Below, one piece after another: positions 4,775-20,167 of a DNA stretch of 64,000 bases. The notes beneath the pieces were generated by a model that saw nothing but the letters and a program-made list of their open reading frames with translations, was not told where the DNA came from and ran no database searches. This stretch comes from Methylobacter sp. (GTDB lineage: Bacteria > Pseudomonadota > Gammaproteobacteria > Methylococcales > Methylomonadaceae), in the NCBI GenBank assembly GCA_004299305.1, contig SCPZ01000125.1, positions 1 through 64,000 on the forward strand, in the 5' to 3' direction. The stretch's first letter is position 1. The number at the start of each line of letters is the position of its first letter. Position numbers and translations under genes: made by a program.

Positions 4775-4805
4775 CGCTGTATGGTGATGCTTTTCTGCCC
4801 ACGAG

Positions 4806-4984: not shown

Positions 4985-5407
4985 ATGGCTTTAGCACAAG
5001 AAGATGTTGATCAAATTCAGTGGCTCATAAAAAAAGCATTATCCGAAATGCCGGAGACATTAAACGCTAATGTACGTTATGAGTTGGATTTACGGGAAAG
5101 AACCATCCGCGTGGAAGAGGAGTTGAAACATCAGCGGGAGCTAATGTTGGAAGGCTTCAAGCAGATGGAAAAGCGCTTCGAACAGGTAGATAAGCGCTTC
5201 GAGCAGGTAGATAAACGCTTCGAGCAAATGCAGCTGGATATGAATAAGCGTTTTGAACAGGTGGATAAGCGTTTTGAGCAAATGCAGGTTGAAACGACGA
5301 AACGCTTTGATCAACTTACCACACGCATTGATCATTTTATGGTCTGGTCATTTGCAACTACACTTACTGTTGGTGGGATAGTGATCGCAACGATTAAATT
5401 TCTGTAG
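4985..5407 (+). CDS. Heptad-repeat coiled-coil protein with C-terminal membrane anchor
   Basis: A 140-residue protein. Residues 30-115 are a long coiled coil built from near-identical heptads, KRFEQVD repeated and alternating with KRFEQMQ. At DNA level these are 21-bp in-frame repeats. Residues 118-138 (MVWSFATTLTVGGIVIATIKFL) form one transmembrane helix at the very C-terminus, so it is probably a tail-anchored inner membrane protein with a cytoplasmic coil. It resembles the DUF1640/CCDC90-like small coiled-coil proteins. Function unknown. It is flanked on both sides by the same terminator repeat, which suggests it forms its own transcription unit. Confidence 0.75.
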   Translation: MALAQEDVDQIQWLIKKALSEMPETLNANVRYELDLRERTIRVEEELKHQRELMLEGFKQMEKRFEQVDKRFEQVDKRFEQMQLDMNKRFEQVDKRFEQMQVETTKRFDQLTTRIDHFMVWSFATTLTVGGIVIATIKFL

Positions 5408-5501
5408 CCATGTCGGGTTAGCGATAGCATAACCCGACACATCTCGTGGTAAAACAGGATTGAACAAACCGCCCTTGGGGAAACCTGGGGGCGGTTTTTT
5501 T
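5407..5501 (+). repeat. Repeat module B: second copy of palindrome plus terminator
   Basis: A near copy of module A. The palindrome GTCGGGTTA (5412-5420) pairs with TAACCCGAC, followed by ATCTCGTGGTAAAACAGGAT and the terminator at 5466-5501. It begins at the last base of the coiled-coil gene's stop codon. Confidence 0.85.
5466..5501 (+). terminator. Rho-independent terminator after the coiled-coil gene
   Basis: AACCGCCC pairs with GGGCGGTT around CTTGGGGAAACCTGG, then a run of seven T residues. It is almost identical to the terminator at 4868-4904. Confidence 0.85.
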
Positions 5502-5558
5502 ATGGCTGGATGATAGAATGCGGTTTTAAATTTAAAGCCTTAAAAACGAGGAAGCATC

Positions 5559-6389
5559 ATGATTAGCAAATACCTCAACCCGTATACGGATTTTGGCTTT
5601 AAAAAACTGTTTGGCGAAGAAGCGAGCAAAGACCTGTTAATTGATTTTTTAAATCAACTGTTGCCGCCGCAACATCAAATCGCCCAATTGAGCTTTAAAA
5701 ATCCAGAGAATATGTCGGACACCCTCGACGAGCGTAAATCTATTTTCGATATTTATTGCCAAAGCAATACGGGGGAGCGTTTTATTGTTGAAATGCAAAA
5801 AGCGAAAATGCAGTTTTTCAAAGACCGTTCGCTGTTTTATTCGACTTTTCCGATTCGAGACCAAGGCAAAAAAGGGCTGTGGGATTTTTATTTACTGCCG
5901 GTTTATTTCATTGCGATTTTAGATTTTAAATACGACGAAAAGGAAGATGAGCGTAAGTTTCGCCGCGATGTGTGTTTAAAAGACCAAGATGGCGATGTGT
6001 TTTATAACAAATTGCATTTCAAGTTTTTGCAAATGCCGCTGTTTAACAAACAGGAACATGAACTGGAAACCCATTTTGATAAGTGGGTTTATTTTCTGAA
6101 GCATTTGGAAGACTTTGACCATATTCCAGCGATTTTAAACGAGCCGATTTTTCAAAAAGGCTTTGATATAGCCGAAGTGTCCCATTTAAGTAGCGATCAA
6201 TACGATGCGTATTTAAAAAGTATTTTGTCATATAACGAAGCAAAAGCGGTGACAGACACTGCGTTTTATGATGGCAAAACCGAAGGCAAGATCGAAATCG
6301 CAAAAACAATGCTTTCCGAAGGTTTTGAAATTAGCGTTATCGCAAAAATAACAAAGTTAACAGTTGATGACATTGAGAAATTAAAATGA
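5559..6389 (+). CDS. Rpn-family recombination-promoting nuclease (PD-(D/E)XK)
   Basis: A 276-residue protein of the Rpn/PDDEXK_2 family, annotated in many genomes as putative transposase. The start YLNPYTDFGFKKLFGEE is characteristic. The nuclease core has Asp in SIFDIYC (near residue 65) and the VEMQ motif (near 85-90), which supply the D...ExQ active site. The tail (YDGKTEGKIEIAKTMLSEG, then ISVIAKITKLTVDDIEKL) is the usual Rpn C-terminal helix-turn-helix-like segment. E. coli RpnA relatives are metal-dependent endonucleases that stimulate RecA-independent recombination. The protein appears full length. Such genes are often multicopy and move between strains. Confidence 0.9.
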   Translation: MISKYLNPYTDFGFKKLFGEEASKDLLIDFLNQLLPPQHQIAQLSFKNPENMSDTLDERKSIFDIYCQSNTGERFIVEMQKAKMQFFKDRSLFYSTFPIRDQGKKGLWDFYLLPVYFIAILDFKYDEKEDERKFRRDVCLKDQDGDVFYNKLHFKFLQMPLFNKQEHELETHFDKWVYFLKHLEDFDHIPAILNEPIFQKGFDIAEVSHLSSDQYDAYLKSILSYNEAKAVTDTAFYDGKTEGKIEIAKTMLSEGFEISVIAKITKLTVDDIEKLK

Positions 6390-6708
6390 GCGCAGGCAAT
6401 CCGCCATGATCGGGATGATCTGACCTCAATACTTTACTTCTCCCTCCAGGAGAAGGTTGCAAATAAGCTTTTTTCCTTATTTTGATTCCCCCTCGGCAAC
6501 TGCTCCCTGCGTCGCCTAAAGCGCCTACTTTTGGTGCTCTACCTCCTGCATCCGTGCAGTCGTCACCCTTTCCCTCTGGAGAGGGCTTTGTACCGCTTAA
6601 GTCAACCGTATTGTGATCTGACCTGACCCTCACTCGGATATTTCCAAACGGGGGGTATTAAAAATAGGGGGGTAATTATGACAACGGTTTTTTGGTGAAA
6701 AAAACCGC
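6390..6708. other. Non-coding stretch with repeat fragments
   Basis: No convincing gene is present. It contains the pieces CTCCCTCCAGGAGAAGG and CCCTCTGGAGAGGG, typical of dispersed repeats. A 26-base segment (6512-6537) is the exact reverse complement of 36928-36953, showing that a repeat family connects this gap with the one upstream of lptB. Confidence 0.6.
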
Positions 6709-6846
6709 GTTCACCCTATGCTAATGCTGACTTCTGTCATGTTCAAAGCCAGCTTTGAACTCCTATAGCACCTTTTTCGGGAGTCCAAAGCTGGCTTTGG
6801 ACAATAAGAATCGGCTTTGCGGTTAAAAAAGGGGGTGAGTAGTTAC
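6709..6846. repeat. MITE-like element, copy 1 (shortened)
   Basis: The sequence matches the reverse complement of the element at 21858-22036. The right end GGGGTGAGTAGTTAC (6832-6846) is intact. The left end is degraded (TTCACCCTATGCTAATGCTG). The middle contains CAAAGCCAGCTTTG and CAAAGCTGGCTTTGG palindromes. It lacks about 33 bases present in copy 2. No coding capacity. Confidence 0.8.
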
Positions 6847-6888
6847 TAAAATACAAAGAATACATAAAATGCCGGGGGGCAGGATACA

Positions 6889-7326
6889 TTACCATGATGG
6901 CCCATTCAGGCAAGAACTAGCAACTTCACATGTTTTAATTCCATCGTTTGTAAGCTCTAAATAACCATCGCTAGCTTGTGAGCCTGTCGGTGTTGCGGCT
7001 AAAGTGTAACTTGTTGATGTTGCAGATTTAATGGTTAACGTGTAATTTGTTTTTCCGCCTGAAATAGGAACGGTAGTTGAAAAAATAGCCGGTGGGCCGA
7101 AATCGAGTCCTCCTTGTGCCGCCCCCAAATAACTACCTCGCTCTAATCGCCATTGTTCCATCGCGTTTGCAAAAGTTACCAGCGCTCCTTGAGCTTCTGC
7201 TCGCTTGCTCTTTGTTATATGTTCGCGATAATTCGGGATGGCCACAGACGCCAAAATACCTAAAATCGCCACTGCGATCATAAGTTCGATTAAAGTAAAA
7301 CCGCGTATTTTAGTTCTCATAGTCAA
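6889..7326 (-). CDS. pilE: Type IV pilin protein, PilE-like minor pilin
   Basis: A 145-residue prepilin with a short leader (MTMRTKIRG) and cleavage between Gly9 and Phe10. The mature end [20 protein letters not shown] has Glu at +5. The globular part ([33 protein letters not shown]) is characteristic of PilE/ComP-type minor pilins at the end of fimT-pilVWX operons. Two cysteines in [10 protein letters not shown] could form a small disulfide. The start overlaps the end of the upstream TPR gene by 17 bases, suggesting coupled translation. It is the last gene of the operon. Confidence 0.85.
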
Positions 7327-8593
7327 GCATAATTTCTTTCATTTGTTGATAGGCCTCGGCATAGCGCGAGGAGTTAGGTTCTAATTGATGCGCTTTACGA
7401 TAATATTTAAACGCTTCTTGCTGACGATTGGTTTGTTCACTGGCTTTGGCTAACCAATACGCCCAATAGGCATTATTTGGTTCTGCTTGTTGTTTAACTT
7501 GCGCCAACTGATAAGCTTTTTGGGCATAAACAGCCATTGCGCTATAGTCACCGAGTTTACGATAACTTTTAGCTAATGATACATTAGCTTGAATGTTGTT
7601 TTCATCTTCCTTAACACGTCGTAAACCCTCATCAACGGCCTTTTGCATAAATGACTGAGCTTTTTCCGTTTCACCCAATATCTCTAGGTTGTCGGCTATT
7701 TGGCGTAAAATTACCGTATTATTTGGTTTGAGTTTATCGTAGAGCTGTAGAACTTCAGAAACGCCGTAAGTGTAATCATAACCTTCATAGCGATCGGCAA
7801 ATTTTTCGTAACCGTTAGCGAGTCGACTATCAATTTCTTTGCGTTGTCCTGGTGAATTTAACAGTAATGTCGTTGTACCCCATGCGGCTCCGATTGCGAC
7901 GAGAAACACTGCGGCATAAGGCAGCGCTGATTTATTTTGTGCGTTGCGACTTAACAGCCAGCTATTCAATGCGGTAAACGCCAGCGCCCACGCCACCAAC
8001 AATTCGGCGACTTCAGCTTCATTAAAACTAAACGGCTCGACTTCTAAAACAGCGGCTACTACAAAAGTAGGCATTAACGACAATGGCGGTGGGGCTGCTA
8101 TCCTCCATTGGGTTAACCACAGTGCCGGTTTAAAATTAATTTGCAAGGCAATCGGAAAAGCTACGCCATAAGCAATTAAACCCGTGGCAACAAAATAAGT
8201 TAATAGCGTTTTACTCCACGAATCGACTGGGCCCGTTAATAAATTATGAAGATTAGCTTCGTCTTGATAACTGTTATTGTGGAAAAAATCTGGCGTATCA
8301 AAGCCAATGATGCGTTGCCCCCACGATATTTCTTCCATGAATACATAAAAACTGGCTATCGCCAGTAATACAAAAAACCAGCGTTGCGGATGATTTTTAT
8401 TGAGTGAAATCAGCGTCGAAAAAACAAATGTTGCTAAAAAACCATAAGTTTGCGTCCATTCGCCATACAAATCTTCGTAGGTGCTAATAACATAGACACC
8501 TGGATAGTACACCGCAGCAATCGCGTAAAAGCAGACAATGGCCAGTGTAATGCTGCACAATAAAACTGCGATAGGATTTAGAGTTAGTTTCAT
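7310..8593 (-). CDS. Multispanning membrane protein with C-terminal TPR repeats
   Basis: A 427-residue protein. The first 245 residues contain several hydrophobic helices (near 8-28, 50-65, 72-86, 130-150, 178-210, 225-245). Residues 265-420 are TPR-like ([35 protein letters not shown] appears as consecutive helices; also [25 protein letters not shown] and [19 protein letters not shown]). It sits inside the minor-pilin operon between fimT and pilE and overlaps pilE. It is not a standard pilus gene. A role as membrane-bound assembly scaffold is possible but unproven. Confidence 0.75.
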
Positions 8594-8761
8594 TGTTTAT
8601 TTCCTCATGTTTAGCGGACTAGGGTGTTTCTATTGAGCTTGGAGTGGTGTTTGGAAATGGTAGGCGATGCGCACCCGGCATGATTAAATTTGATTTTGCG
8701 GATGTTACATTGATTTTTTTAAAGAATTATCTGATGAGCTAAGCGGGGATTTGTATCAATA

Positions 8762-9331
8762 TTACCCATTACCCGGACAATTTGGTGGTCCATAGGCTAT
8801 TCCGGAGCTGGCAGGTGTTTCAACTCGAACTCTGCCTGTAGGCGCTATGACTACCCTGCGAAAATCGGCTATATCAGGGGGTGAGCAAAAATAGAAACTT
8901 CCATTAGCGGTACTACGTCCATCCGGACGATAAATGACCCTGTTGGCATATACATTGGTAGGGTTTACAGTGAATCCCGTGTTAAGCGGGTCAAAGGAAC
9001 TAATGGTAGGCTCATCACTATCTTGATCGAAATTAGTTAATGAGTTTTTTTCTGCAAAAACAACCCAGCCATTTGCCCATGTGCCATTGTTACTGACGAC
9101 AACCAGACGATTGCTTTTTATAGCTTCACTTTTAGCTAATTGTAATGCGCTTACCAGGCTATTGGCTGAAGTCGTTAAGCGATTACTGGCAATGAGTGAT
9201 TGAAAACTGGGCACGGCAATCGATAATGTAACCCCTATAATGGCGATTACGATCAGTAATTCGATAAACGAAAAACCCTGTGTAAAGCTATCTCTATTGT
9301 TATTCATCATGAGCATAGTGCGGCTCTGCAT
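8762..9331 (-). CDS. fimT: FimT/GspH-type pseudopilin
   Basis: A prepilin-like protein of about 190 residues. The mature N-terminus FSFIELLIVIAIIGVTLSIA follows Gly (SFTQG). The body has the FimT/GspH hallmarks LTTSANSLVSALQLAKSEAIK and GWVVFAE, and ends with GRVRVETP. FimT initiates pilus assembly and in some bacteria binds DNA. The start is uncertain: ATG at 9331 is used here, while internal ATGs at 9316, 9310 and 9307 would give a more usual short leader. None has a clear ribosome site. It is the apparently functional counterpart of the truncated copy at 13249. Confidence 0.85.
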   Translation of the reverse strand: MQSRTMLMMNNNRDSFTQGFSFIELLIVIAIIGVTLSIAVPSFQSLIASNRLTTSANSLVSALQLAKSEAIKSNRLVVVSNNGTWANGWVVFAEKNSLTNFDQDSDEPTISSFDPLNTGFTVNPTNVYANRVIYRPDGRSTANGSFYFCSPPDIADFRRVVIAPTGRVRVETPASSGIAYGPPNCPGNG

Positions 9332-9392
9332 ACTTGACTGATGTGTCAAGCATGCAGAAACCAGCGCAATAGTTTAAGTTAAAGTGTATGCA

Positions 9393-10763
9393 TTACTTCA
9401 CATCACCACTTGTCGGTTCTGGAGAGATGGGCGCAGTATTTTCCCTGAAGTTTAGTCGACCACTGGCTGTAACCGGGGAAACTGTTGCACAAGATATGTC
9501 TGCACCAGTCAGGGTTGTTCCTGAAGTTGTTCCCCCTGAGACTGTTCCTGCTGAGAGTATTCCTCCAATGACATTTGCCGTGGCGCTGGTTCCAGCGGTT
9601 ACAGTACCTCCAGTAATGGTACTTCCATTTACAACCGCGTTTGTGATGGTCGCGTTTGTGATAGGTACGCAAGGTAGGGTTACATTGGTTGAGAATGCAC
9701 TTGTTATGCTGTCTGTAGCTCCGGCACTAACACATGCATCTACGGCTTGTTTAATCGAAACGTCAGTGTAGCTGGTTTCAGTCAGAATAATGTCTTTGCT
9801 GCTGGGTTTTGCTTTGTATGCAACAATGGCGTCTTTCAGTTTTTGGTCTTGTGCATCTCCGCAGCTTTTCAAGATATGCTGACTATGTCCTGAATCGCCT
9901 CTTTTCTTACCTGTTTTGCCGGAGTCTATTTTATTGGGGCTGCCGGTATCTGCTACACATTTCTTGTACTCTTTCCAAACACCGCTATCGTCTAAACTGC
10001 TATCCGAAACAACGACCGGATCTTTAAGAATGCCTTTTGCGGCGTTGTTGTCTCGAGCAGTATCGGCATCTTGCAATGTTTTACGGTATTTTTTGTCACT
10101 AGAATCGCCTTTATCTTGACAGCCTCTAATCCGATGGTGCTTACCGCTATCCGATACGCTGTCATGACCTCCCCCTTTCGCCTTGCCTTTGTTGCTATCG
10201 CTGCTATCGCTACTATCGCCCTTGTCCAGACATTGGCTCATCGCAGTGACGACCGCTTCATCGTCTAATGCGGTATCCGCCACGGTGATGGGTTCAAAAT
10301 AAGACTGTACTTTGGTTTCCAACGTTTCGTGGGCAGCACCGGTGCAGCCGGAAATAATGTGCAATGTTTCTTTGGGGGTTGTGCTGGTTTTGCTGTTACA
10401 AGAACCTAAATAATCGACATAATCGGGGCCTTTATCATTCGTGTGCGCTTTGTGTGCTGCCCATGCGCTAAATGCAATATGGAGAGTATGTTTCTGTTCA
10501 GGATTACCAGGGGGAACGTGGCAGATAGTGATTTTTTGATGCGATTTATTTCCTGAATCGGTAGCGCTACGTTTATTACTATCGGTATGGGCTACCGCCG
10601 GCTTCGCCTTACTTGAGTCTTCTTTTTTCTTTTCTTCCACCTTCGTCTTCTTATCTCCGCCATCATCCTTAGCATAGCTAGACATCGGATAACCAGCTAC
10701 TCCCGCTGTCAGTATCGCGCTGATTGTCAGTGACAATATTTTTCTTTTTGTAGTTGTTTTCAT
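9393..10763 (-). CDS. Secreted CHVPPGNP-motif protein in the minor-pilin operon
   Basis: About 456 residues, not recognised as a named family member. It has a signal peptide (KRKILSLTISAILTAGVAG, cut near SYA), then a charged Lys/Asp/Ser-rich region. The segment ITICHVPPGNPEQKHTLHI followed by conserved Ala, His and Cys residues resembles a short Cys/His motif seen in many secreted proteins. There are several further Cys-containing units with DTALDDEAV / DSSLDDSGV / ETSYTDVSI echoes, suggesting three or four internal repeats of about 90-110 residues. The C-terminal third is Thr/Gly-rich and beta-repeat-like (TITGGTVTAGTSAT). ATG at 10763 follows AGGTGG. It occupies the place normally held by pilY1, so a pilus-tip or surface role is inferred. 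Confidence 0.7.
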   Translation of the reverse strand: MKTTTKRKILSLTISAILTAGVAGYPMSSYAKDDGGDKKTKVEEKKKEDSSKAKPAVAHTDSNKRSATDSGNKSHQKITICHVPPGNPEQKHTLHIAFSAWAAHKAHTNDKGPDYVDYLGSCNSKTSTTPKETLHIISGCTGAAHETLETKVQSYFEPITVADTALDDEAVVTAMSQCLDKGDSSDSSDSNKGKAKGGGHDSVSDSGKHHRIRGCQDKGDSSDKKYRKTLQDADTARDNNAAKGILKDPVVVSDSSLDDSGVWKEYKKCVADTGSPNKIDSGKTGKKRGDSGHSQHILKSCGDAQDQKLKDAIVAYKAKPSSKDIILTETSYTDVSIKQAVDACVSAGATDSITSAFSTNVTLPCVPITNATITNAVVNGSTITGGTVTAGTSATANVIGGILSAGTVSGGTTSGTTLTGADISCATVSPVTASGRLNFRENTAPISPEPTSGDVK

Positions 10764-10900
10764 CGTATCCACCTGTTTAGTTAATTATGAACAGCCTGAT
10801 TATACTGTCCGCTTTTTATGGGTCTGTTAATTACCTCGCATTAGTGTGAATTAAATCGCCTATGCCGACCCTAGCACGGCACTTATCGAATGTAAACGTT

Positions 10901-11431
10901 TTAGAACCCTCCACCAGAACAATTAACAGCATATTTAGACTCAACAGTCCGTTGTGCACCGTAACCCGAAACGTCTGCTATAGATTCCCATTTTATAATG
11001 TAAACTTCGGCGTTATCCTTGCATCTACAGGCAAATATATCGTCACGAACTCCATTGGTATAAGTGCATTCAGTTTCCGTTGTGCTTGTTAAGCAATAAA
11101 CCCCCGTTACCGTTGCCTTACCGGTAGCGCTCTCAACAATAACTTCGTCTTTATCCACTTGCGATGCAATATTACACCTGCGATCACTATAAGGGGGGCT
11201 AGCATTTGGATTCAAGCGAGTCTCATCAATAAACTGTTGAGCTTGGGCTAAGTCTGTTTCCGCGCGTGCTAACGACTTGGTTTGCTCCAGGGTATTTCCG
11301 GCCATCGCAAGCTCTTGCTTATTTTGCTGAATCATACTAACGCTAACGAGGGTCAGCAGTAACAGCATAACCAAGCTAAAGGCTAAAACTGCTCCGCGCT
11401 GATGGGATATACCCATTACTTCATAGTTCAT
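10901..11431 (-). CDS. pilX: PilX-family minor pilin
   Basis: About 176 residues. The N-terminus HQRGAVLAFSLVMLLLLTLV is the PilX form of the pilin helix, with GAVL replacing the FTLIE start. The following SVSMIQQNKQELAMAGN and AETDLAQAQQFI are typical of PilX N-terminal domains. PilX helps form the pilus tip complex with PilV, PilW and FimT. The start at 11431 is preferred because AGAGAGG lies just upstream; the longer frame would overlap pilW. It begins 16 bases after the pilW stop. Confidence 0.85.
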   Translation of the reverse strand: MNYEVMGISHQRGAVLAFSLVMLLLLTLVSVSMIQQNKQELAMAGNTLEQTKSLARAETDLAQAQQFIDETRLNPNASPPYSDRRCNIASQVDKDEVIVESATGKATVTGVYCLTSTTETECTYTNGVRDDIFACRCKDNAEVYIIKWESIADVSGYGAQRTVESKYAVNCSGGGF

Positions 11432-11447
11432 GTAGGCCTCTCTTACA

Positions 11448-12332
11448 TTAAATCTTATTACGAAATGCAATAGTCGTTGAAAAAACCCGATATAAGCGTT
11501 TGTCGGTAACTGGATAACTTATGCCGTCTATAGTGTAGCCAACTGGGAATTCCGTTAGATTATCATCATCACTCCGTAATACTACGGATAACTTAATTGC
11601 GACGACTCGTTGCCAATTAGTGACATTGAAGGCATCCACATAATAATTGGCAGCACCATCAGCAGCAAAATCAGAATCAACCCCGTAGGTTATTAACAGC
11701 TGCTGGACGTTAGATACCAAAGCTTGCGCAGTCGATGTTGGATTGTTAGCGGGAGCAGGATCATCAAGATTTTGCCGTTTTGCTCTACAGTAAAGAACCG
11801 GTGAGTTTGTAGAGGTATCGAATGCCACATAAAAATAAAGTGTTACTACGTGCTTTTGGACCGCCGGATCTTCTCCTGCGTTCAAGGCTAGGTTTCTTTC
11901 GCAAGCTGAATTAGTGGAAAAAGGATCAGATTGCGCTAATTCAGTGATATTGTTTAACTGATACCTGAGCGCCAACCGGTTAATATCGTATGGATCTGCA
12001 TTGAAAGCGACGGTATTAGCTTGCCCCATAATGTAGTCGCCAGCCAAAAAATTCATGCCTGACCCTAATACAGATACGTCGTCGGTAAACACCACATCAG
12101 CGCCACCGCCTGCAGTCAGTTTGTTTCTTAGGGAACCTGAGCGACGTAATTCTCTACCGAATACTTCCAGTATATAGCGGCCATCTTCCATCATGTAACT
12201 GAGCGAGCGTTGAATTGCAGAGCTTTTTTGGGTTTGCACAAAAAGACTACCGAATCCGGAAATCATCATCAAGCCTAACAACAAACTGATCATCAATTCA
12301 ACTAGTGTATAGCCCTGTTGATGCCTGTTCAT
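11448..12332 (-). CDS. pilW: PilW-family minor pilin
   Basis: A 294-residue prepilin. The leader MNRHQQG is followed by YTLVELMISLLLGLMMISGF, a class III signal with Glu at +5. Next comes the PilW signature (IQRSLSYMMEDGRYILEVFGRELRRSG). The large C-terminal globular domain fits PilW (usually 270-370 residues). It forms part of the minor-pilin priming complex in the inner membrane. The start overlaps the end of the pilV fusion gene by four bases (ATGA), a sign of translational coupling. Confidence 0.9.
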   Translation of the reverse strand: MNRHQQGYTLVELMISLLLGLMMISGFGSLFVQTQKSSAIQRSLSYMMEDGRYILEVFGRELRRSGSLRNKLTAGGGADVVFTDDVSVLGSGMNFLAGDYIMGQANTVAFNADPYDINRLALRYQLNNITELAQSDPFSTNSACERNLALNAGEDPAVQKHVVTLYFYVAFDTSTNSPVLYCRAKRQNLDDPAPANNPTSTAQALVSNVQQLLITYGVDSDFAADGAANYYVDAFNVTNWQRVVAIKLSVVLRSDDDNLTEFPVGYTIDGISYPVTDKRLYRVFSTTIAFRNKI

Positions 12333-13186
12333 GGCGTTACTTCCAATTCGTAGGTTGAGTTTTGAAGAGCTGTAGAGCCACTTTGTTTACTTAAGTCTTG
12401 GTTAATTCGAGACCACGTCATAGTTAAGCAGAGTGATGGAACGGCCCCAACACAGGTAGTTGAGCCAGCCTTTGGACTTGTTGAAACAACGGCTGTAGCA
12501 CCGGCTGATAGTGTCGTTATAGCTTTTTGCTGCCAGTAACAATAGTCGTAAGCGGCCATCTGAGCAGTGGTGCAAGGGGCTGCGACAGTGTTGCACCCAG
12601 CGGCACAGCTCGCAATGGGAATATTTACTATCGTACCGGAAGGATTCCATCCTCGTTTATTGGCTTTAATCCTATCACTCATTTCATAAGCCAGTGCATT
12701 TGCTTGGCTGTATAAATAAGCATCCTGACTGTTTTTTAGTGAAATTCCTTGTAATGAGGCCAAGCCTAATAAGCCTATCGCCAAAATAACCATGGAAACT
12801 AAGACTTCAATTAGAGTAAAGCCTATTTCGTAGCGAGAAGGTGAGGCGCTAGTCTGATGTTGCTGGAAAGGAACGGTTGCCGAGATGGTTTGCAAAGAAC
12901 TAACAATGCTGCTGTCCAATCTATTGAGCGAAGGCGATATAAGGATGTCATAGCTCATGCACAACTCAGTCATTTTGTCACAGACTACTCGATAGACTTT
13001 TGCTGATAAAATATCGGGCGAAATGATCAGAATATCGACATCCGAATACCCGTGAAATTGTCCTGTTGCGTAGGAGCCAAACAAGTACACGGGATAGGCA
13101 AAGTCCTTAAATGCTAGTCCAAGATAGGCACGCGCACTTTCTAGTTTTTTTTCTCTGGCTAGCAGGATCAGGTTAATTGTATTCAT
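12329..13186 (-). CDS. pilV: Nucleotidyltransferase domain fused in frame to PilV minor pilin
   Basis: A 285-residue chimera. Residues 1-105 are a MNT-type nucleotidyltransferase domain: GSYATG (37-42), the DVD pair Asp49/Asp51 and a likely third acidic residue, Asp80. From residue 121 the sequence is PilV: Gly122, then FTLIEVLVSMVILAIGLLGL, then NSQDAYLYSQANALAYEMSDRIKANK, the PilV hallmark. The join has no stop, and no ATG precedes the pilin part closely, so PilV would need either a 122-residue leader or a non-ATG start such as TTG near codon 98. The pilin part itself looks intact and is coupled to pilW. The fusion probably arose by recombination replacing the end of a fimT copy and the start of pilV. 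Confidence 0.8.
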   Translation of the reverse strand: MNTINLILLAREKKLESARAYLGLAFKDFAYPVYLFGSYATGQFHGYSDVDILIISPDILSAKVYRVVCDKMTELCMSYDILISPSLNRLDSSIVSSLQTISATVPFQQHQTSASPSRYEIGFTLIEVLVSMVILAIGLLGLASLQGISLKNSQDAYLYSQANALAYEMSDRIKANKRGWNPSGTIVNIPIASCAAGCNTVAAPCTTAQMAAYDYCYWQQKAITTLSAGATAVVSTSPKAGSTTCVGAVPSLCLTMTWSRINQDLSKQSGSTALQNSTYELEVTP

Positions 13187-13238
13187 ATGCTTGTTCCAAA
13201 ATAAGCAAAACTTGAGTTAAAGCATCGTTCGCTGGCAT
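13173..13238 (-). other. Possible 21-residue ORF overlapping the nucleotidyltransferase start
   Basis: The frame ATG at 13238 to TAA at 13173 encodes MPANDALTQVLLILEQAYEY plus Asn. Its stop lies inside the first codons of the nucleotidyltransferase-PilV gene. HEPN toxin genes usually precede MNT antitoxin genes with such an overlap, so this may be the tail of a lost partner. A chance ORF or leader peptide is equally possible. Confidence 0.3.
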
Positions 13239-13248
13239 AGCTTGTCAA

Positions 13249-13374
13249 TCAGTTGCTGGCAATGATCTCAGTAAAACTGGGGATAGCGATCCCTGCCACC
13301 ATCCCAGCGATGGCGAGACTGATCATCAACTCAGTCAAGGTAAACCCTGAGCTATATTCCGGCTGCTTGTGCAT
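13249..13374 (-). pseudogene. Truncated fimT/gspH prepilin
   Basis: From ATG 13374 the frame gives MHKQPEYSSG, then FTLTELMISLAIAGMVAGIA and IPSFTEIIASN, and stops. That is a normal prepilin leader, cleavage site and hydrophobic helix of a FimT-type protein, cut after IASN. The intact FimT at 8762 continues past the same IASN with RLTTSANSL. Only about 41 residues remain, so it cannot be a working FimT. The break lies just upstream of the nucleotidyltransferase-PilV fusion. Confidence 0.85.
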
Positions 13375-13743
13375 GATTTTGAGGTATCCCGTTGGCGATT
13401 TGTTGCGGCGATGGAGCGTTACGGTAATAACCTGCCGCCAAAGTCGATTGAGGATTAGTATAAACCATAAGCTATACATTGACGACCGGATGAAATTCTG
13501 AGCTGCGCGGGCCATCCTTATCTATTTTTCCTTTTCGTTTCGCCCGATTATAGAGCGCTCTTGTTTTAGATTTGTTAGCTACTCTACATTTCGACTATTA
13601 AATACAAAGGTTATTCGCTTTACCTTCGCGAGTATTGCTTATGTTATATTTGCTTCCATGGACCCTGTTTTTCCCTACAGACCAGATGTTTGACGGAATG
13701 TTCTTTCTCTTAAATCACCCTGCATTTTAACAAGGAGCTATTT

Positions 13744-14226
13744 TTGAATACACACACCCTCTGCCGTTGCGGTTCGGGCCTTGAATACACCCAATGCTGC
13801 GGCCCCTTCCATTCCGGCGAAAAACAGTCCGCAACTGCGGTAGCCTTAATGCGTTCGCGCTATACTGCTTATGCTTTGCATAATGCCAGCTATTTGCTGG
13901 ATACCTGGGACGCCACTGTACGACCTGAGTTGATCGATTTTTCCAAGGAAAAAGTCGATTGGCAACGCTTGGAAATCGTTAATACTAAAAAAGGCGGGGC
14001 TCAGGATGCGAAAGGCATGGTGGAATTTAAAGCGTATTACTTACAGGATGGCGAGGAATACGTTATGAATGAGATCAGTCAGTTTATCAAACGCGCAGGC
14101 GCTTGGTTTTACCTGGATGGACGGGTTAAGTCCATCGGCAAAGTAGGTCTACAAACCAATCTTGGCAAGAATGCCCCATGCTCTTGTGGCAGCGGCAAAA
14201 AGTTTAAACGGTGTTGCGGAGCCTGA
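13744..14226 (+). CDS. YchJ-like SEC-C motif protein (UPF0225)
   Basis: A 160-residue protein with zinc-binding SEC-C motifs at both ends: CRCGSGLEYTQCCGPF near the N-terminus and CSCGSGKKFKRCCG at the C-terminus. The middle (ALMRSRYTAYALHNASYLLDTW, FKAYY, SQFIKRAGAWFYLDG) is the NTF2-like YchJ domain. The family is widespread in Proteobacteria and its exact role is unknown; SEC-C also occurs in SecA, where it contacts SecB and ribosomes. The start is TTG at 13744: AAGGAG at 13732-13737 is well placed and no ATG fits. Confidence 0.9.
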   Translation: MNTHTLCRCGSGLEYTQCCGPFHSGEKQSATAVALMRSRYTAYALHNASYLLDTWDATVRPELIDFSKEKVDWQRLEIVNTKKGGAQDAKGMVEFKAYYLQDGEEYVMNEISQFIKRAGAWFYLDGRVKSIGKVGLQTNLGKNAPCSCGSGKKFKRCCGA

Positions 14227-14312
14227 GTGGTATGCAAAGTTGTGGAGACAGGCACAAAAGGCAACCGAGCGGCGCCCGTAGCTGGGCTGATTAGCCTACC
14301 CCAACAATAGCG

Positions 14313-14720
14313 TTATTTTTCATCTTTCGTGGGTTCTTCCGACTCCCCTATCAGCGCAGACAGGCAGTCCATCTGGCTTTCGGTATAGTTGGAATGAGCC
14401 TCTGCGAGTTCTTTTGCCGAGCCGAAATCATTGCGTAGTTCTTCAAGGGTCTTTTTAGGATCTTTAGACGAAGACAGCGTCAACATTTTTGTATAGTTAC
14501 GGTAAGCAGTCAAGCGCTTGGGATCGAGAGCAAAAACGCCGGGCATGTTGTTTGAGGTCGTATCAACGACGCATTTAGCCATGCGTTCCGGGGATAATTT
14601 ATAGTCTTTAATATCTTTTTCCAACTGCATTTGCTCCAATACAGTCTGTTCATATTGAGTTTTATCTGCACAAGCAGGGAGTAATAATGCAGAGAGGGAT
14701 ATGAGCAATAGTTTTTTCAT
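14313..14720 (-). CDS. Small predicted lipoprotein
   Basis: A 135-residue protein. MKKLLLISLSALLLPAC is a lipoprotein signal with the lipobox LPAC, so Cys17 would be lipidated after signal peptidase II cleavage. The mature part is helical and charged (YEQTVLEQMQLEKDIKDYKL, KDPKKTLEELRNDFG) with two more cysteines. Residue +2 is Ala, so Lol sorting to the outer membrane is likely. No family is recognised and it appears to be a single-gene unit. Confidence 0.75.
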   Translation of the reverse strand: MKKLLLISLSALLLPACADKTQYEQTVLEQMQLEKDIKDYKLSPERMAKCVVDTTSNNMPGVFALDPKRLTAYRNYTKMLTLSSSKDPKKTLEELRNDFGSAKELAEAHSNYTESQMDCLSALIGESEEPTKDEK

Positions 14721-14760
14721 TTCAGTGTTACCGTTATTAGTGAATAATGCAATTATACGT

Positions 14761-14810
14761 CAGGTGCAAGGTTTTTAGCCTTGAACCTTTTACCTTGAAC
14801 CTTGCTCCTT
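14761..14810. repeat. AACCTTGAACCTT-type low-complexity repeat
   Basis: Repeats of CCTTGAACCTT and TTTACCTTG fill the gap before plsC. A closely related tract lies at 34078-34143 between rapZ and hpf. It may form a weak hairpin (AGGTGCAAGG against CCTTG). Confidence 0.65.
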
Positions 14811-15557
14811 TTAGTCCATCTCCTTCATAGCCTGTGTTATCCAGGCCTCTGCTTCCGCATTGATGTCGGCGGCTTTGCGTCCCTTGCTTTCTATGACCGG
14901 GCCGATTTTTAGCTTGATGACGCCGGGATATTTTAAAAAACTATAACGCGGCCAAAAATCACCGGCATTATGTGCGACAGGGACGACCGGAAAACCGGTT
15001 TTATGCGCCAGCATCGCGCCGCCGATATTAAATTTCAACACCTCCCTGGCCCCGGCACGAGTGCCTTCCGGAAAAATCAGCACCCATAAACCTTGGTTTA
15101 AGTATCTGCTTCCTTGTTCGAGCAAGGAACGTAATGACGCGCGTTGGTTTTTGCGGTTTATGACAATGGATTTTAGGGTAAGCAGCGACCATCCCCAAAT
15201 CGGGAGATAAAGCAATTCACGTTTTATGACCACAGAATGCGGCGGAAGAATATATCTTAACGCCAACGTTTCCCATGCCGACTGATGATTGCTCAAGATG
15301 ATGGCCGGTTGTTGCGGGTCAATGTGTTCCAGTCCTTCTACTTCGTAGGTGAGGCCGCAAAAAACCCTAGTCATCCAACCGATAATCGCACACCAGGCAT
15401 GGCCGATTTTCCAGCGTATTTTGAACGTCGTTAACATGCCTAACATAAGCAGCACTCCGACTACGGTAGCGGTAGAAAAGATACCTAAAAATAACAGCGC
15501 CGAGCCTATATAGTTTTTAGGCCTAGGGTCTTGATGTGATAAATGTTGCTGCGTCAT
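14811..15557 (-). CDS. plsC: 1-acyl-sn-glycerol-3-phosphate acyltransferase (PlsC family)
   Basis: About 248 residues. It transfers the second acyl chain to lysophosphatidic acid at the inner membrane to make phosphatidic acid. The N-terminal hydrophobic helix (ALLFLGIFSTATVVGVLLML) is followed by motif I NHQSAWE, an HX4E variant of HX4D, and motif III FPEGTRAG. The longest open frame begins at 15809, but that part lies over gmhB. The ATG at 15557 gives the normal family length and overlaps the gmhB end by 35 bases. The overlap indicates an operon glyS-gmhB-plsC. Confidence 0.85.
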   Translation of the reverse strand: MTQQHLSHQDPRPKNYIGSALLFLGIFSTATVVGVLLMLGMLTTFKIRWKIGHAWCAIIGWMTRVFCGLTYEVEGLEHIDPQQPAIILSNHQSAWETLALRYILPPHSVVIKRELLYLPIWGWSLLTLKSIVINRKNQRASLRSLLEQGSRYLNQGLWVLIFPEGTRAGAREVLKFNIGGAMLAHKTGFPVVPVAHNAGDFWPRYSFLKYPGVIKLKIGPVIESKGRKAADINAEAEAWITQAMKEMD

Positions 15558-16068
15558 ATAAATTCTCAAAAATGGGAATGTTGAGATTAGGATTGTTATG
15601 TAAGGTTTGTAGGCCTTTACCGGTTTTGACCAGTATCGGGCTTGCACCGACCGCCTGCGCCGATTGGAGGTCGCGGAGCGAATCGCCGATAACCGCGATG
15701 CCGACCAGACTGACATTTTTGTCGGCGGCAAATGCTTCAAGCAATCCCGGTTTGGGTTTGCGACAGTTGCAGGCATCGTCCGGCCCATGCGGGCAAAAAT
15801 AGATAGCATCGATTTTTCCGCCTTTTTCTTCGGTCATACGCTGCATTTTCGCATGGATTTTTTCCAGCATCGCGGCATCGAATAAGCCGCGAGCCAAGCC
15901 GGACTGATTGGTGATTACAACGACTTTATAGCCATGTTCATTGAGCAGGGCAATAGCTTCCAGGCTGCCTTCAATCGGCAGCCATTGTTCCGGGGATCTT
16001 ATAAAATCGTCCGAGTCGCGGTTAATTACGCCATCACGATCCAGCAATACGTAGCGGTCTTCGGCCAT
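15523..16068 (-). CDS. gmhB: D-glycero-beta-D-manno-heptose-1,7-bisphosphate 7-phosphatase
   Basis: About 181 residues. It removes the 7-phosphate in ADP-heptose synthesis for the LPS inner core. The HAD motif I is DRDGVINRD, motif II TNQSGLARG, and motif III/IV GDSLRDLQSA. The Cys/His zinc loop (CPHGPDDACNCRKP) is diagnostic for GmhB within the HAD superfamily. The ATG at 16068 lies four bases after the glyS stop, so the shorter start is preferred. Confidence 0.93.
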   Translation of the reverse strand: MAEDRYVLLDRDGVINRDSDDFIRSPEQWLPIEGSLEAIALLNEHGYKVVVITNQSGLARGLFDAAMLEKIHAKMQRMTEEKGGKIDAIYFCPHGPDDACNCRKPKPGLLEAFAADKNVSLVGIAVIGDSLRDLQSAQAVGASPILVKTGKGLQTLHNNPNLNIPIFENLYDAATFITSRP

Positions 16069-16072
16069 GCGG

Positions 16073-18154
16073 TTACGATTGCAATTTGGAGATGTCGGCA
16101 CAAGTCAAAAACTGCTCGGACAGCAGGTTCAGCAATGCCAACCGGTTGGCGCGCAAGTCAAGATCATCGGTCATCACCATCACATGATCGAAAAACGCAT
16201 CGACGTCATTGCGCAGTCCCGCCAGACGGTTGAGTGTCGCCTGATAATCGCGTTGCGCCAGCAAGGGTTTAATATCGCCTTCGGATTGCAATGCGGCTTG
16301 CAACAGTTGTTTTTCTTGCGGCTCAAGCAATGCGCCGACGCTGGCTGCCGGTTCGGTATCCGATTTTTTCAGGATATTGCGGATGCGTTTGTTCGCCGCC
16401 GCCAAGCTTTCGGCTTCGGGCAGTTGTCTAAAGGCTTTAACCGCCTGTAAACGCTGCATAAAATCCAGCGGTTCGGCAGGATTTACGGTGATTACCGCGT
16501 CGAATTCATCGGCGGTGTAGCCGTGATCGAGGCAATAGCCTTTCAATCGGTCAAAAATAAAATCGATAACCCGGTCGGCTGTTTTGGATTGGTCAGCAGT
16601 GTGCCCGGAAACGGTTTTAATCTGGGCTCCGGCGAATTCCGTTAACTCAACAATATTAATGTTAAGTTTATTCTCGATGATGGTTCTTAGGATACCTAAT
16701 GCAGCGCGGCGCAAGGCATACGGATCTTTATCACCGGTAGGAATCAAGCCGACCGCAAAAATACCAACCAGTGTGTCTATTTTTTCCGCAATAGCAAGAA
16801 TTTGCCCGGTTATACTGCCTGCCGTCGGACTGCCCGACTGTTTGGGAAAATACTGTTGTTCAAGCGCCAGGGCGACCTCTTTCGGTTCATGCTCCGCCAG
16901 CGCATAATAGCGTCCCATAATGCCTTGCAGGTTGCCGAATTCGCCGACCATCTCGGTCATCAGGTCGGTTTTAGCCAACAACGCGGCGCGTTCGGCCAAT
17001 TCAATATCAGCCCCCAAGTGCCCGGCAATAAATTTTGCGAGATTTTTAACCCGTATAGTTTTGTCGTAAACCGTGCCTAAACTTTCTTGAAACACAACGC
17101 TGGACAAACTTTCCACGCGATCTTCCAGTTTTTTCTTACGATCTTGATTCCAAAAAAACTCCGCGTCGGAAAGGCGCGGGGTCACCACGCGCTCGTTACC
17201 CTGTTGTATGGATTTTGGGTTAGTGCTGTCAATGTTGCTGAAGGTAATGAAGTTGGCCAGCAAACCGCCCTCGGCATTTTTAACCGGGAAGTATTTCTGG
17301 TTGGTTTGCATTGTGGTAATCAGCACTTCTGGCGGCAGCTCCAGGTAACGCGGGTCGAAAGTCCCGGTGATCGGCATCGGCCATTCGTTCAAGGCGGCAA
17401 TCTCTTCCAGCAAATCGGCCTCGATATGCGCCTCACCGTTCACTGCGGCGGCGGCTTTTTGTGCTGCATCGCGGATGATGGTTTTTCTTTGCTCGAAATC
17501 GGCAATCACGCGGCCTTGTTTGTACAGGGCATCGGCGTAGTCTTCCGGCTTAGTCAGGGTGATTTTTTGCGGAGCGTGGAAGCGATGACCTTGCGTAGCC
17601 GCACCGGTTTTGAGGCCCAGGATTTCGGTGTCGATGACCTTATCGCCGTAAAGCAAGACCGCCCAGTGTACCGGTCTGACGAATTCGGTAGTGAAGCTGC
17701 CCCAACGCATCCGCTTGGCGATCGGCAATCCGGCGATGCTCTGACGGATGATGTCAGGGATCAGGTTTTCAGTTGCTTGGCCTTTAACGGCTTGAGTAAA
17801 ACTGAGCCATTCGCCTTTGTCGGTAAGCAAGCGTTCCAGTTGGTCGAAACGGGTACCGCAGCTGACCGCAAAACCCAAGGCTGCCTTGCTGGGCGTGCCG
17901 TCCGGCGCAAATGCCGCTTGCAGCGCAGGGCCGCGCTTTTCGACGGTTTTATCGGGTTGCGCGGTAGACAGGTTTTCGATGAAAACGGCTAGACGTCTGG
18001 GCGTGGCGTAAGCTTTGCTGCCGGTAAAGGTTAGTTCGGCGGCGTTAAGGCCTTGAATGATGCCGCTCAATAAAGCGTTGCTCAGTTTCAGCAAGGTCTT
18101 GGGAGGCAGTTCTTCCGAACCTAATTCGAAAAGTAAATTCTGTTTTTCTATCAC
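16073..18154 (-). CDS. glyS: Glycine-tRNA ligase beta subunit
   Basis: A 693-residue beta subunit of the tetrameric bacterial GlyRS, which provides tRNA recognition for the GlyQ catalytic subunit. Typical segments are LLFELGSEELPPKTL at the N-terminus, YATPRRLAVFIENL, the central HD-like domain (LLAKTDLMTEMVGEFGNLQG, GRYYALAEHE) and the C-terminal anticodon-binding part ending in the DDLDLRANRLALLNLL segment. The start is GTG at 18154, overlapping the stop of a short upstream frame (GTGA). glyS is normally directly behind glyQ; here about 2 kb of foreign-looking genes separate them. Confidence 0.97.
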   Translation of the reverse strand: MIEKQNLLFELGSEELPPKTLLKLSNALLSGIIQGLNAAELTFTGSKAYATPRRLAVFIENLSTAQPDKTVEKRGPALQAAFAPDGTPSKAALGFAVSCGTRFDQLERLLTDKGEWLSFTQAVKGQATENLIPDIIRQSIAGLPIAKRMRWGSFTTEFVRPVHWAVLLYGDKVIDTEILGLKTGAATQGHRFHAPQKITLTKPEDYADALYKQGRVIADFEQRKTIIRDAAQKAAAAVNGEAHIEADLLEEIAALNEWPMPITGTFDPRYLELPPEVLITTMQTNQKYFPVKNAEGGLLANFITFSNIDSTNPKSIQQGNERVVTPRLSDAEFFWNQDRKKKLEDRVESLSSVVFQESLGTVYDKTIRVKNLAKFIAGHLGADIELAERAALLAKTDLMTEMVGEFGNLQGIMGRYYALAEHEPKEVALALEQQYFPKQSGSPTAGSITGQILAIAEKIDTLVGIFAVGLIPTGDKDPYALRRAALGILRTIIENKLNINIVELTEFAGAQIKTVSGHTADQSKTADRVIDFIFDRLKGYCLDHGYTADEFDAVITVNPAEPLDFMQRLQAVKAFRQLPEAESLAAANKRIRNILKKSDTEPAASVGALLEPQEKQLLQAALQSEGDIKPLLAQRDYQATLNRLAGLRNDVDAFFDHVMVMTDDLDLRANRLALLNLLSEQFLTCADISKLQS

Positions 18155-18303
18155 TGTAGTTCCTTTAATAAAAGGTCTTTTAAATCTTTAATGATGTACG
18201 AGTCGTTATTCATTTGTTTTAACAATTCAATTTGAAATTCGCTTTTGTTAAAGCTGCACTTGAATTCCCTACAAATAAAGTCAATAAGGCTAGTTAAGCT
18301 TCT
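18151..18303 (-). other. Short open frame translationally joined to glyS
   Basis: A frame of about 50 codons is open from 18303 to a TGA at 18151-18153 that overlaps the glyS GTG. It reads ...LTSLIDFICREFKCSFNKSEFQ, then IELLKQMNNDSYIIKDLKDLLLKELQ (as two adjoining parts). The only ATG is at 18213 (20 codons); a TTG occurs at 18225. It may be the end of a decayed third gene of the inserted module or a coupling leader. Not recognised. Confidence 0.4.
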
Positions 18304-19085
18304 TTACCTCTAAAATAATTTTTAGCAAAATCTAGTGACAGGGTACTAGGCTGATTTATCAAATTGTGCCAATTAAATTCGCTTTTAATTTCTTCATAGA
18401 GCGAGTTTCTTGTTGGGTGCGTGCTGATTTTTGTGGTTTCGAAATAAGTTAAAAACCAAATTCCTATTGTTTCGATGGTATCTGTATCAAAAGTATTTGG
18501 TTTTGGAATAGAAAAAGATGAATAGTCTATCTTAGGATTAAGATTAAATTTTAAGCATTCAAAAAATTCTTCTTTGATAGATTCGATAAAATAGTCGGTT
18601 AAATGATTGTCCAAAGCATTCTTGGTAACTTTGATGTCTGAATTCTTTGAAAAGCCACCTGATTTTTTTGATTGTTTTGGAAATTGATTAACAAAATCCG
18701 CAATCAATTGAGTTTCTTCTAATAAATAGTTTTCCCATTCATGCCGATGCCAATACAAAACTTTAGCCTTTTTAGAGCTAATTATTTCATTGTTCTCTAT
18801 AGATAATTTATCTTGGCTAACTCTAGATAATTTATCTTGGCTAACTCTATAATCGCTATCCGCGATCGCTAAAACTGGTATTTTCGTATGAGCTTTAGAA
18901 TGTTTATAAAAAGTTTTAGCTAAACTGGAATTAAATAAAACAGAACTACTACCAATTTCAAAAACCTCAGGTACATAAGAGATGTCATTATCTTTAAAAA
19001 TTTTGCTTATGCTGTTTTGTAAAAATGGTAATTCAGGGCTTGCTGGTTCTCCTTCAACCAATATGTACAATAGTTCTCCACTCAT
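18294..19085 (-). CDS. DUF4435-type TOPRIM-like protein, possible AriB-like defence effector
   Basis: A 263-residue protein. The TOPRIM-like signature consists of YILVEGE (Glu11) and IADSDYR (Asp76, Asp78). YWHRHEWENYLLEE (111-124) is the WENYLL signature of DUF4435. In the PARIS system AriB, a DUF4435 TOPRIM nuclease, is released by the ATPase AriA when a phage anti-restriction protein is sensed, and it attacks host tRNA. Gene order (ATPase first), four-base overlap and family pair match PARIS, but the proteins are shorter than described ones, so the assignment is tentative. An eight-residue tandem duplication (RVSQDKLS twice) follows the active-site DSD. Confidence 0.75.
   Translation of the reverse strand: MSGELLYILVEGEPASPELPFLQNSISKIFKDNDISYVPEVFEIGSSSVLFNSSLAKTFYKHSKAHTKIPVLAIADSDYRVSQDKLSRVSQDKLSIENNEIISSKKAKVLYWHRHEWENYLLEETQLIADFVNQFPKQSKKSGGFSKNSDIKVTKNALDNHLTDYFIESIKEEFFECLKFNLNPKIDYSSFSIPKPNTFDTDTIETIGIWFLTYFETTKISTHPTRNSLYEEIKSEFNWHNLINQPSTLSLDFAKNYFRGKEA
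18801..18848. repeat. Exact 24-bp tandem duplication inside the DUF4435 gene
   Basis: Bases 18801-18824 and 18825-18848 are identical and add eight residues in frame (RVSQDKLS), next to the DSD motif. It looks recent because the copies have no differences. Confidence 0.95.
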
Positions 19086-20167
19086 TCCCCTAAATCTCCT
19101 AGATCTATAATTTCATCCTCATAAAAAAGTTGTTTTATAAAAGGGGAATGGGTAGTAAAAATATATTGGTTATTGCTTTGGATGTCTTCGCGCAAAACTT
19201 GAATTAATTTTGTTTGCCAAGCAGGATGTAAATGTAATTCCACTTCATCAATAAGCACCACCGAATTTTTCGCTCGCTCAGAAACCAGACCAACTAGAAT
19301 TCTTAAAATCTGATGTTCGCCTGAACTCATTTGTGACAAATCGTATTCCACACCGTTTTTACTAAGAATTAACGTATCAATATCTTCATTGGATTCCAAA
19401 CCAATCAATTTTGTTGGATAACATACTTTATTAAATAGCCGTTGCGTTCTAGCCCAATAAGACTCGCCACTTTTTTCCTGATTCCAGGTTTGGTGCTTAA
19501 GATAAAACTCCCTCAACCATGACAAAACATCGTTATAGAGCAAGTTATCTTCTTTTTCCGTTGAGAAGCTTCTTACCAACATCAAAGAGCGTCTTTGATC
19601 TAAATAACAGATTCCACCTATACGCTCAAACATACTCCTTGATACTTGATTTTGGCTAATCGCTCGTTTTAATTGTCCTCGTGATCCCAATACTCTTGCA
19701 GCCCCTGTTGGACTAACAGAAACAGAAAAAGGTTCTCTTTCATGTGAATTGGAGGGTGGATATTGCCAGATAGCGGTTGATGATTCAGTAACAGGCGGTA
19801 TATTTGTTTTTTTATCCGCAAAAGGAATAGATAAGTTTAACGCTCGAAAAATCTCATTAATAGCAGCCGCCTCATCTTCTTCAATCGAGTATTCCAGTTC
19901 GATTTTGGCATGATTATTCACACGACTGTTACCATGAACTAGCTGTTGCACAGAGAAATCCAATCCCTCTCTTAATTCTGGATGCTGGGGGTTTTCCAAA
20001 CTTTTAACTACAACTTGAACAGCATCTAAAATAGAGGTTTTACCGCTCCCATTTGGACCAACTATCAAAGTAACAGCTCGGGGCTTAGATAAGCTGTCAG
20101 TAAAATCTAATTTATCTAAATTTTTAATAGCTCGAAAATTTTGTATTTTCAAAGAATGTAATTTCAT
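19082..20167 (-). CDS. AAA/ABC-type ATPase of a two-gene defence-like module (AriA-like)
   Basis: About 361 residues of the OLD/RecF-like AAA15/AAA21 group. It begins MKLHSLKIQNFRAIKNL; Walker A is GPNGSGKTS (37-45), the ABC signature is LSQMSSGEHQIL, Walker B is VVLIDEVELHLHP and the switch His is in TTHSPF. Such ATPases act as sensor or clamp partners of TOPRIM nucleases in Gabija, PARIS and OLD systems. A longer frame to 20230 runs into glyQ; ATG 20167, seven bases after the glyQ stop, is preferred. Its stop overlaps the DUF4435 start. Lower GC than the glyQ and glyS flanks supports acquisition by transfer. Confidence 0.85.
   Translation of the reverse strand: MKLHSLKIQNFRAIKNLDKLDFTDSLSKPRAVTLIVGPNGSGKTSILDAVQVVVKSLENPQHPELREGLDFSVQQLVHGNSRVNNHAKIELEYSIEEDEAAAINEIFRALNLSIPFADKKTNIPPVTESSTAIWQYPPSNSHEREPFSVSVSPTGAARVLGSRGQLKRAISQNQVSRSMFERIGGICYLDQRRSLMLVRSFSTEKEDNLLYNDVLSWLREFYLKHQTWNQEKSGESYWARTQRLFNKVCYPTKLIGLESNEDIDTLILSKNGVEYDLSQMSSGEHQILRILVGLVSERAKNSVVLIDEVELHLHPAWQTKLIQVLREDIQSNNQYIFTTHSPFIKQLFYEDEIIDLGDLGE

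Follow-up and report, generated by a model that had tools for sequence, protein, structure and literature searches.

Probable Class II-type HEPN/MNT fusions to minor prepilins, with in-frame scars, in the family Methylomonadaceae

Introduction

The closest described systems are two-gene HEPN/MNT modules, which pair a HEPN protein with a minimal nucleotidyltransferase (MNT). In Class I pairs the MNT adenylylates HEPN through the motif GSX10DXD, and the proven pairs have the HEPN motif RX4HXY; for Class II HEPN/MNT, the available text of the same source asks for validation (PMC7641770). HEPN-MNT insertions inside housekeeping operons have been reported for the lysine operon of Thermus and for Deinococcus (PMC2701414). 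Minor prepilins, on the other side of the comparison made here, belong to a group of proteins whose leaders are given a length of 6–51 residues (PMC6916266) and are described as staying in the cytoplasm, where they are cut by prepilin peptidase (PMC10191384).

The locus presented here lies in a window of 64,000 nucleotides (the whole stretch of DNA that was analysed; positions 1 to 64,000 of contig SCPZ01000125.1, assembly GCA_004299305.1) from a Methylobacter sp., presumably a methanotroph judging by how related records are named, and it joins an MNT to the minor prepilin PilV. With the Class I pair HepT/MntA (type VII; Shewanella SO_3166/SO_3165) it shares the MNT fold and the GSX10DXD motif: the top-ranked Foldseek match of the modelled fusion is a HEPN-MNT complex (8xeh, E 9.5e-4), and the closest solved sequences to the MNT are the MntA-family chains 5yep and 6m6u. 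It differs from this pair in that the first half of the fusion scores 25.0 bits with the NCBIfam MntA equivalog model, below the cut-off of 60, and in that the HEPN of the relatives has an R-x5-H motif (R-HTHSV-H) with no Tyr two residues on, and hence not RX4HXY. Because this HEPN is a PF05168 protein without RX4HXY, and thus of Class II, the pair is not filed as a member of the type VII toxin-antitoxin systems. The likeness to Class II, as far as the latter is described in the available text of PMC7641770, consists in a PF05168 HEPN gene of the relatives that overlaps a PF01909 MNT gene with GSX10DXD; the difference is that here the MNT forms the N-terminal part of a prepilin, and that HEPN in the window is a remnant. 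As in Thermus and Deinococcus, a mobile two-gene cassette sits in an operon and is present or absent between strains or species, but those cases were reported as insertions of gene pairs, and the available text of PMC2701414 describes neither fusion to a host protein nor deletion scars. The prepilin motif, the family models and the operon order are those of PilV and PilW, whereas the leaders, with 122 residues in the window and approximately 108–170 in MNT::PilW fusions of relatives, exceed the range of PMC6916266. No HEPN/MNT or nucleotidyltransferase-pilin fusion was found in the titles and abstract openings of the literature searched, a collection that most subscription journals lie outside of.

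Results and Discussion

The MNT::PilV fusion gene

An uninterrupted frame of 285 codons on the minus strand (13186–12329) holds an MNT in frame with PilV. It consists of the following parts:

12329–13186, minus strand: MNT::PilV fusion ORF, 285 aa (open frame, Pfam, NCBIfam)
12875–13186, minus strand: MNT domain, residues 1–104 (alignment, AF2, Foldseek)
12824–12874, minus strand: linker, residues 105–121 (pLDDT <50; best match the MNT-PilW linker of genome G023)
12821–12823, minus strand: Gly122, prepilin peptidase site, with the cut between G and FTLIEV (N_methyl, TIGR02523)
12332–12820, minus strand: mature PilV part (TIGR02523; ~74% identity with PilV of the same-genus genomes G009 and G008)

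The fusion of a nucleotidyltransferase to PilV had been proposed in an initial annotation made from the sequence, and it is borne out by domain models that recognise both halves above their cut-offs: Pfam NTP_transf_2 at residues 33–58 (E 6e-8), and the NCBIfam PilV model TIGR02523 at residues 121–258 (79.8 bits, cut-off 52.2). Residue 122, which the annotation took for the prepilin Gly, is where the Pfam N_methyl match (122–142) begins. The gene also has the place of a pilV, before pilW and pilX, but its leader is not of ordinary length (6–51 residues; PMC6916266): counted from the ATG at 13186 it comprises 122 residues, so that the earlier remark on a leader far longer than normal was correct as well. 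Likewise, the retention of GS, DVD and a third Asp could be verified; GSX10DXD is intact (G37 S38, ten residues, D49 V D51), the third Asp is D80, and the MNT keeps all 25 columns that are invariant across the nine other MNT rows compared (rows L027 and L029 excluded). In the AlphaFold2 model the MNT part adopts a nucleotidyltransferase fold (pLDDT mostly 85–95), residues 105–123 have a pLDDT below 50, and a long pilin helix starts at residue 125.

Distribution of the cassette

Searched with the MNT alone, 14 of the 237 family genomes gave a match; two of these (G208 and G219) carry other MNT types. By profile search, an MNT of this subfamily was detected in 13 of the 311 genomes of the order, and among 369 genomes drawn from the class the only matches were in G000 and G032; as sampled, and judged from these profile matches, the subfamily seems confined to the order. 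The window MNT had no match in a plasmid collection, and a mobile-element origin on plasmids was rejected as far as that collection goes.

Nine of the 13 genomes carry the MNT in a minor-pilin operon. In five of these, belonging to three other genera (G023, G202, G168, G149, and G154), it is in frame on PilW, with the gene order fimT-pilV-(HEPN)-MNT::PilW-pilX, and the window is alone among the nine pilin-operon cases in having the MNT in frame on PilV. HEPN-MNT or MNT stands ahead of fimT-pilV in G205, G124, and G199, and the MNT lies outside minor-pilin operons in G098, G032, G188, and G285. A PF05168/PF01909 gene pair is present in relatives, with a whole HEPN gene adjacent to the MNT in, for example, G168, G149, and G205. 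The genes of intact cassettes overlap: HEPN begins in the stop of pilV, with which it shares 4 nt, and the MNT start lies inside the HEPN end.

This distribution bears on the possibility that the window fusion is an artefact of assembly or sequencing, the case by which the initial annotation would have had its reading overturned, with separate genes restored. The genome is a draft of 144 contigs, which leaves room for such an error, but the MNT lies within an 80-kb contig and matches only once in its own genome, and the same cassette and a similar linker occur in other genomes; the cassette is also present in Methylomonas sp. SURF-2 (G168) and Methylomonas sp. WSC-6 (G149), both identified by sequence and gene layout. 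Two of the five MNT::PilW genomes are deposits of named strains, not MAGs. With the cassette fused to pilins in five other genomes, an assembly chimera was rejected as unlikely, and an artefact of any kind is extremely improbable.

Gene neighborhood and origin of the window fusion

The surroundings of the fusion gene contain the following features:

13249–13374, minus strand: truncated fimT (fimT') with a prepilin motif, ending at a stop behind IASN (domain search; 77% DNA identity with fimT of G199)
13173–13245, minus strand: HEPN 3' remnant, ~19 codons to the stop TAA (frame translation; DNA alignment with locus L036)
13194–13197, minus strand: GGAA, Shine-Dalgarno-like, within the HEPN remnant (relatives have comparable purine runs at this position)
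12840–13723, minus strand: insert without counterpart in G009 and G008 (blastn breakpoints)
11448–12332, minus strand: PilW with a short leader of normal length, sharing 4 nt with the fusion ORF (domain search)
10901–11470, minus strand: PilX (domain search)
9393–10772, minus strand: repetitive secreted-type protein, conserved in G009 and G008 (comparison with relatives)
8762–9349, minus strand: resident intact fimT, GspH domain (domain search, relatives)

The HEPN remnant (13245–13173) had been overlooked in the initial annotation. It sits in another frame and overlaps the MNT start, and HEPN end and MNT together are 74.5% identical on the DNA level, over 345 bp, to positions 5942–6286 of L036 (G124). 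A purine run in the HEPN end precedes the MNT start in the window as in the relatives and may be the reason that the HEPN end persists in the window. An adjacent whole HEPN gene is absent from the window, in which the Class II gene pair is thus reduced to a HEPN remnant and a whole MNT, and no PF05168 protein that could serve as HEPN partner is encoded elsewhere in the genome, in cis or in trans. The protein encoded at 9393–10772 (minus strand), within the minor-pilin cluster, is of low complexity and has no Pfam match, and no pilY1-sized gene was seen beside this cluster in window positions 1–20,000.

The comparison of the operon with relatives, which had been suggested as a check, was informative. 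G009 and G008 have the same neighboring genes and a pilV with a normal leader (MPKINFR..G). Homology to these genomes breaks at window positions 13724 and 12839, with approximately 884 bp here in place of approximately 379 bp there. Both lack a fimT ahead of pilV, their fimT being at the far end of the cluster like the second copy of the window. Since same-genus relatives have no fimT at that place, fimT' is not the resident fimT, and its interpretation as a resident gene cut by insertion was ruled out. The initial reading, that a nucleotidyltransferase gene had taken the place of a fimT end and of a pilV start, therefore stands as far as the replacement is concerned, but not for fimT', which came with the insert. 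The fimT copy does end at IASN as described (stop at 13249), and beyond the TGA there is still fimT-like sequence (LTSYA), the stop thus not being the end of homology; over 161 bp the DNA identity with fimT of G199 is 77%. From this arrangement, fimT', the HEPN remnant and the MNT appear to have arrived together.

In the PilV tree the window PilV groups with the normal PilVs of L002 to L005 (G009, G012, G008, and G016) in a starred five-row set, and no other cassettes were seen in operons of the L002–L005 type. The linker, in turn, is most like that of the G023 MNT::PilW fusion (2 of 1,000 shuffles as high), whereas native PilV leaders compared with it were equalled by 16–125 of 1,000 shuffles. 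Most likely the window MNT had been fused to a pilin, PilW, earlier, and it appears to have passed from PilW to the resident PilV at the prepilin motif, with loss of HEPN. The simplest reading of these short alignments would be that a donor piece of a fimT-pilV-HEPN-MNT::pilW operon joined the resident pilV, and that the donor's fimT end, its pilV and most of its HEPN were lost. A comparable layout in G199 (L042, 3669–4737), where the MNT is followed by a frame-shifted, broken pilW start running into fimT, indicates that such operon shuffling occurs elsewhere too. The PilV tree (115 rows; 23 of the 120 fetched loci, which had no pilV within 700 nt and include the scar genomes G206 and G218, were left out) requires eight changes for the fused or scarred rows among the rows counted; this state is scattered over the tree, and gain and loss are indistinguishable in it. 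The MNT tree (11 rows, without L029) is too short to place the window, which is contained in none of its starred sets.

Three further loci of the window were recorded. A 959-aa protein with RTX calcium-binding repeats (PF00353) is encoded at 1895–4774 (plus strand) and a PD-(D/E)XK nuclease family transposase (PF12784) at 5559–6389 (plus strand), near the pilin cluster. An AAA ATPase (PtuA/AriA-like, PADLOC E 7e-35) and a 263-aa partner with a weak AriAB match lie between glyQ and glyS (18294–20230, minus strand). The genes glyQ and glyS are adjacent in G008, and in G009 the same spot (L192, 2853–4449) holds an AAA-type gene of another kind (349 aa, judged by eye) and a 185-aa gene; the glyQ-glyS interval resembles a site at which defence-type gene pairs insert.

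Loss of HEPN

Of the two cassette genes, HEPN is the one more easily lost. A whole copy accompanies two of the six fusions, those of G168 and G149; in G023 the gene has two additional residues, in G202 it carries an internal deletion, and neither G154 nor the window retains it. Outside the fusions, the HEPN of G199, ahead of the MNT, is a pseudogene and that of G188 a short remnant. HEPN was found in nine of the 237 family genomes, all nine of which have the MNT, and not one of the 237 had HEPN without MNT; five genomes of the family have an MNT without a whole HEPN. This pattern fits the expectation if HEPN is harmful alone. For the HEPN-MNT pair, toxin-antitoxin activity is predicted and likely by analogy, the build and the loss pattern resembling those of such a system. 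Sequence peculiarities of HEPN were seen in two genomes: in G023 (L035, 5574–6014), beside MNT::PilW, it has two extra residues (HT) in the R...H stretch, and in G124, which carries both a HEPN-MNT ahead of fimT (L036, 5580–6315) and a HEPN/MNT scar on PilW (7669–8529), a Ser replaces the motif Arg.

The window fusion could accordingly be a neutral relic, an accidental joining in which a decaying MNT performs no nucleotidyl transfer and serves only as start and leader of PilV. That HEPN is gone in cis and trans is what this would predict, and elsewhere cassettes have decayed to short scars and catalytic residues were lost: the third Asp in G202, and the GS motif, which is destroyed, in G218, so that activity is not needed for retention in these two genomes. 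Decay is, however, not visible in the window MNT, which keeps every invariant column and motif residue, and its dN/dS of 0.227 relative to G023 (no close relative has the same fusion) is near the 0.19–0.22 of PilV itself; branch-wise values were saturated and noisy and were not used. Motif retention and dN/dS may simply reflect a recent loss of HEPN. The case for a neutral relic is thus evenly balanced, and it overlaps with the reading preferred here, that the window MNT is probably a passenger or a recent relic.

Scars on PilW leaders

Cassette remains were looked for upstream of 127 other PilW genes of the family, of which 120 were fetched and seven came from earlier loci; PilW places were fetched in part, the others being at contig ends, low-scoring, already known or outside the listing. 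Most of these genes have ordinary short leaders. HMM searches (without the partial rows L025 for HEPN and L029 for MNT) gave twelve sense-strand matches with iE<=1 on ten genes, one of them (G076) doubtful, whereas the antisense strand gave no such match and codon-shuffled sequence a single one. Taken individually, just three of the twelve are strong (iE 8e-8 or better). In a pairwise test of 115 leaders (those below 8 or above 160 residues, G018, and G205 excluded), nine scored 45–129, and 0 of 200 shuffles were as high. By these short matches, nine other PilW genes have an in-frame HEPN or MNT scar as leader, and the G001 leader (score 42, 3 of 200 shuffles as high) is probably a tenth. All MNT and HEPN-start matches counted as scars are in the PilW frame. 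PilW of G141 begins as HEPN and passes into the MNT end, that of G206 begins with the first ~28 residues of HEPN, and that of G218 retains MNT residues 1–46 and 73–100. The first 15–17 residues of the MNT form the beginning of PilW in G004, G014 (two genes), and G066, and in G004 and one of the G014 genes this MNT scar stands directly behind a HEPN end in another frame; G124 and G121 are further cases. Several candidates were not counted, because they were out of frame (G076), weak by eye (G077/G027 and G187) or short (G096, G251, G159, and G126); the leaders of G096 and G251 (8 and 11 residues, scores 26 and 29), equalled by 1–2 of 200 shuffles, were taken as chance matches.

The element retained in the scars is a start codon of the cassette that reads into the pilin, an argument for the pilin using it as its own start; read in this way, the scars would behave as natural deletion experiments on the pilin start. 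They weigh against an internal PilV start, from which MNT and PilV would be made as separate proteins. In the window, an in-frame TTG approximately 24 codons ahead of Gly122 is a candidate for such a start; in G154 and G023 an ATG lies between the MNT and the prepilin Gly, so that separate translation of MNT and PilW is possible there. The TTG, however, has no Shine-Dalgarno-like run ahead of it, as judged by eye, and in the scars of other genomes PilW stays in frame with the start of MNT or HEPN. An internal start in the window is therefore quite improbable. Fusion of the cassette to pilins is a recurrent process with fossil scars in one family, broader than the window case.

Proposed mechanism and implications

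Taken together, the locus is likely a Class II-type HEPN/MNT-minor pilin fusion that arose by recurrent cassette entry, is made as one chain and released by the prepilin peptidase PilD, with the MNT as a passenger in the window. The HEPN-MNT cassette repeatedly enters minor-pilin operons of the family, usually ahead of PilW, where the MNT reading frame continues into the prepilin behind it and the start codon of the cassette would become that of the pilin; later deletions in the cassette would leave the scars. In the window, the conserved prepilin motif would have been the point at which a stretch of fimT', HEPN 3' end, MNT and linker recombined onto the resident pilV, HEPN being lost. A single polypeptide would be made, of which the MNT remains cytoplasmic as a giant class III leader while the hydrophobic helix is inserted, and PilD would cut after Gly122 to give an ordinary PilV and a free MNT of 122 residues. 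Because prepilin leaders are cut in the cytoplasm and the genome has one Peptidase_A24 (prepilin peptidase, PilD) gene, processing would set the MNT leader free in the cytoplasm and yield a normally matured PilV. Where HEPN remains, the freed MNT may neutralise it by nucleotidylation; in the window, which lacks HEPN, the MNT would be a folded passenger, kept in frame since PilV depends on its start.

A stronger claim would be functional coupling, with PilD as the release protease of the antitoxin and toxin control tied to pilus biogenesis. In G168 and G149 a whole HEPN, the MNT motif and PilW form one overlapping reading chain, and their linkers, from the MNT end to the prepilin Gly, contain no in-frame ATG, GTG or TTG; PilD is moreover present in the window genome. 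Since HEPN and cassette are often lost, however, and the MNT could act while still attached, such coupling is rather unlikely. The same low expectation applies to the prepilin as a toxin-antitoxin carrier, in which the antitoxin enzyme would be a pilin leader freed by prepilin peptidase, HEPN could be neutralised only once the pilin had been translated, inserted into the membrane and processed, upkeep of the cassette would be tied to the pilus operon, and escape would be open only by in-frame deletions that leave scars; this is put forward as a speculative and doubtful idea.

For the biology of these organisms, the fusions suggest that an entire folded enzyme can be accommodated in a prepilin leader and may be cut off by the normal maturation protease, and they suggest a link between antitoxin supply and pilus biogenesis. 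The whole cassettes, those that have lost HEPN, the half MNT and the short scars constitute a natural series that documents the entry of HEPN-MNT into, and its exit from, a pilus operon. An odd N-terminus of an annotated PilW or PilV protein can also be the fossil of such a module, and need not be an annotation error.
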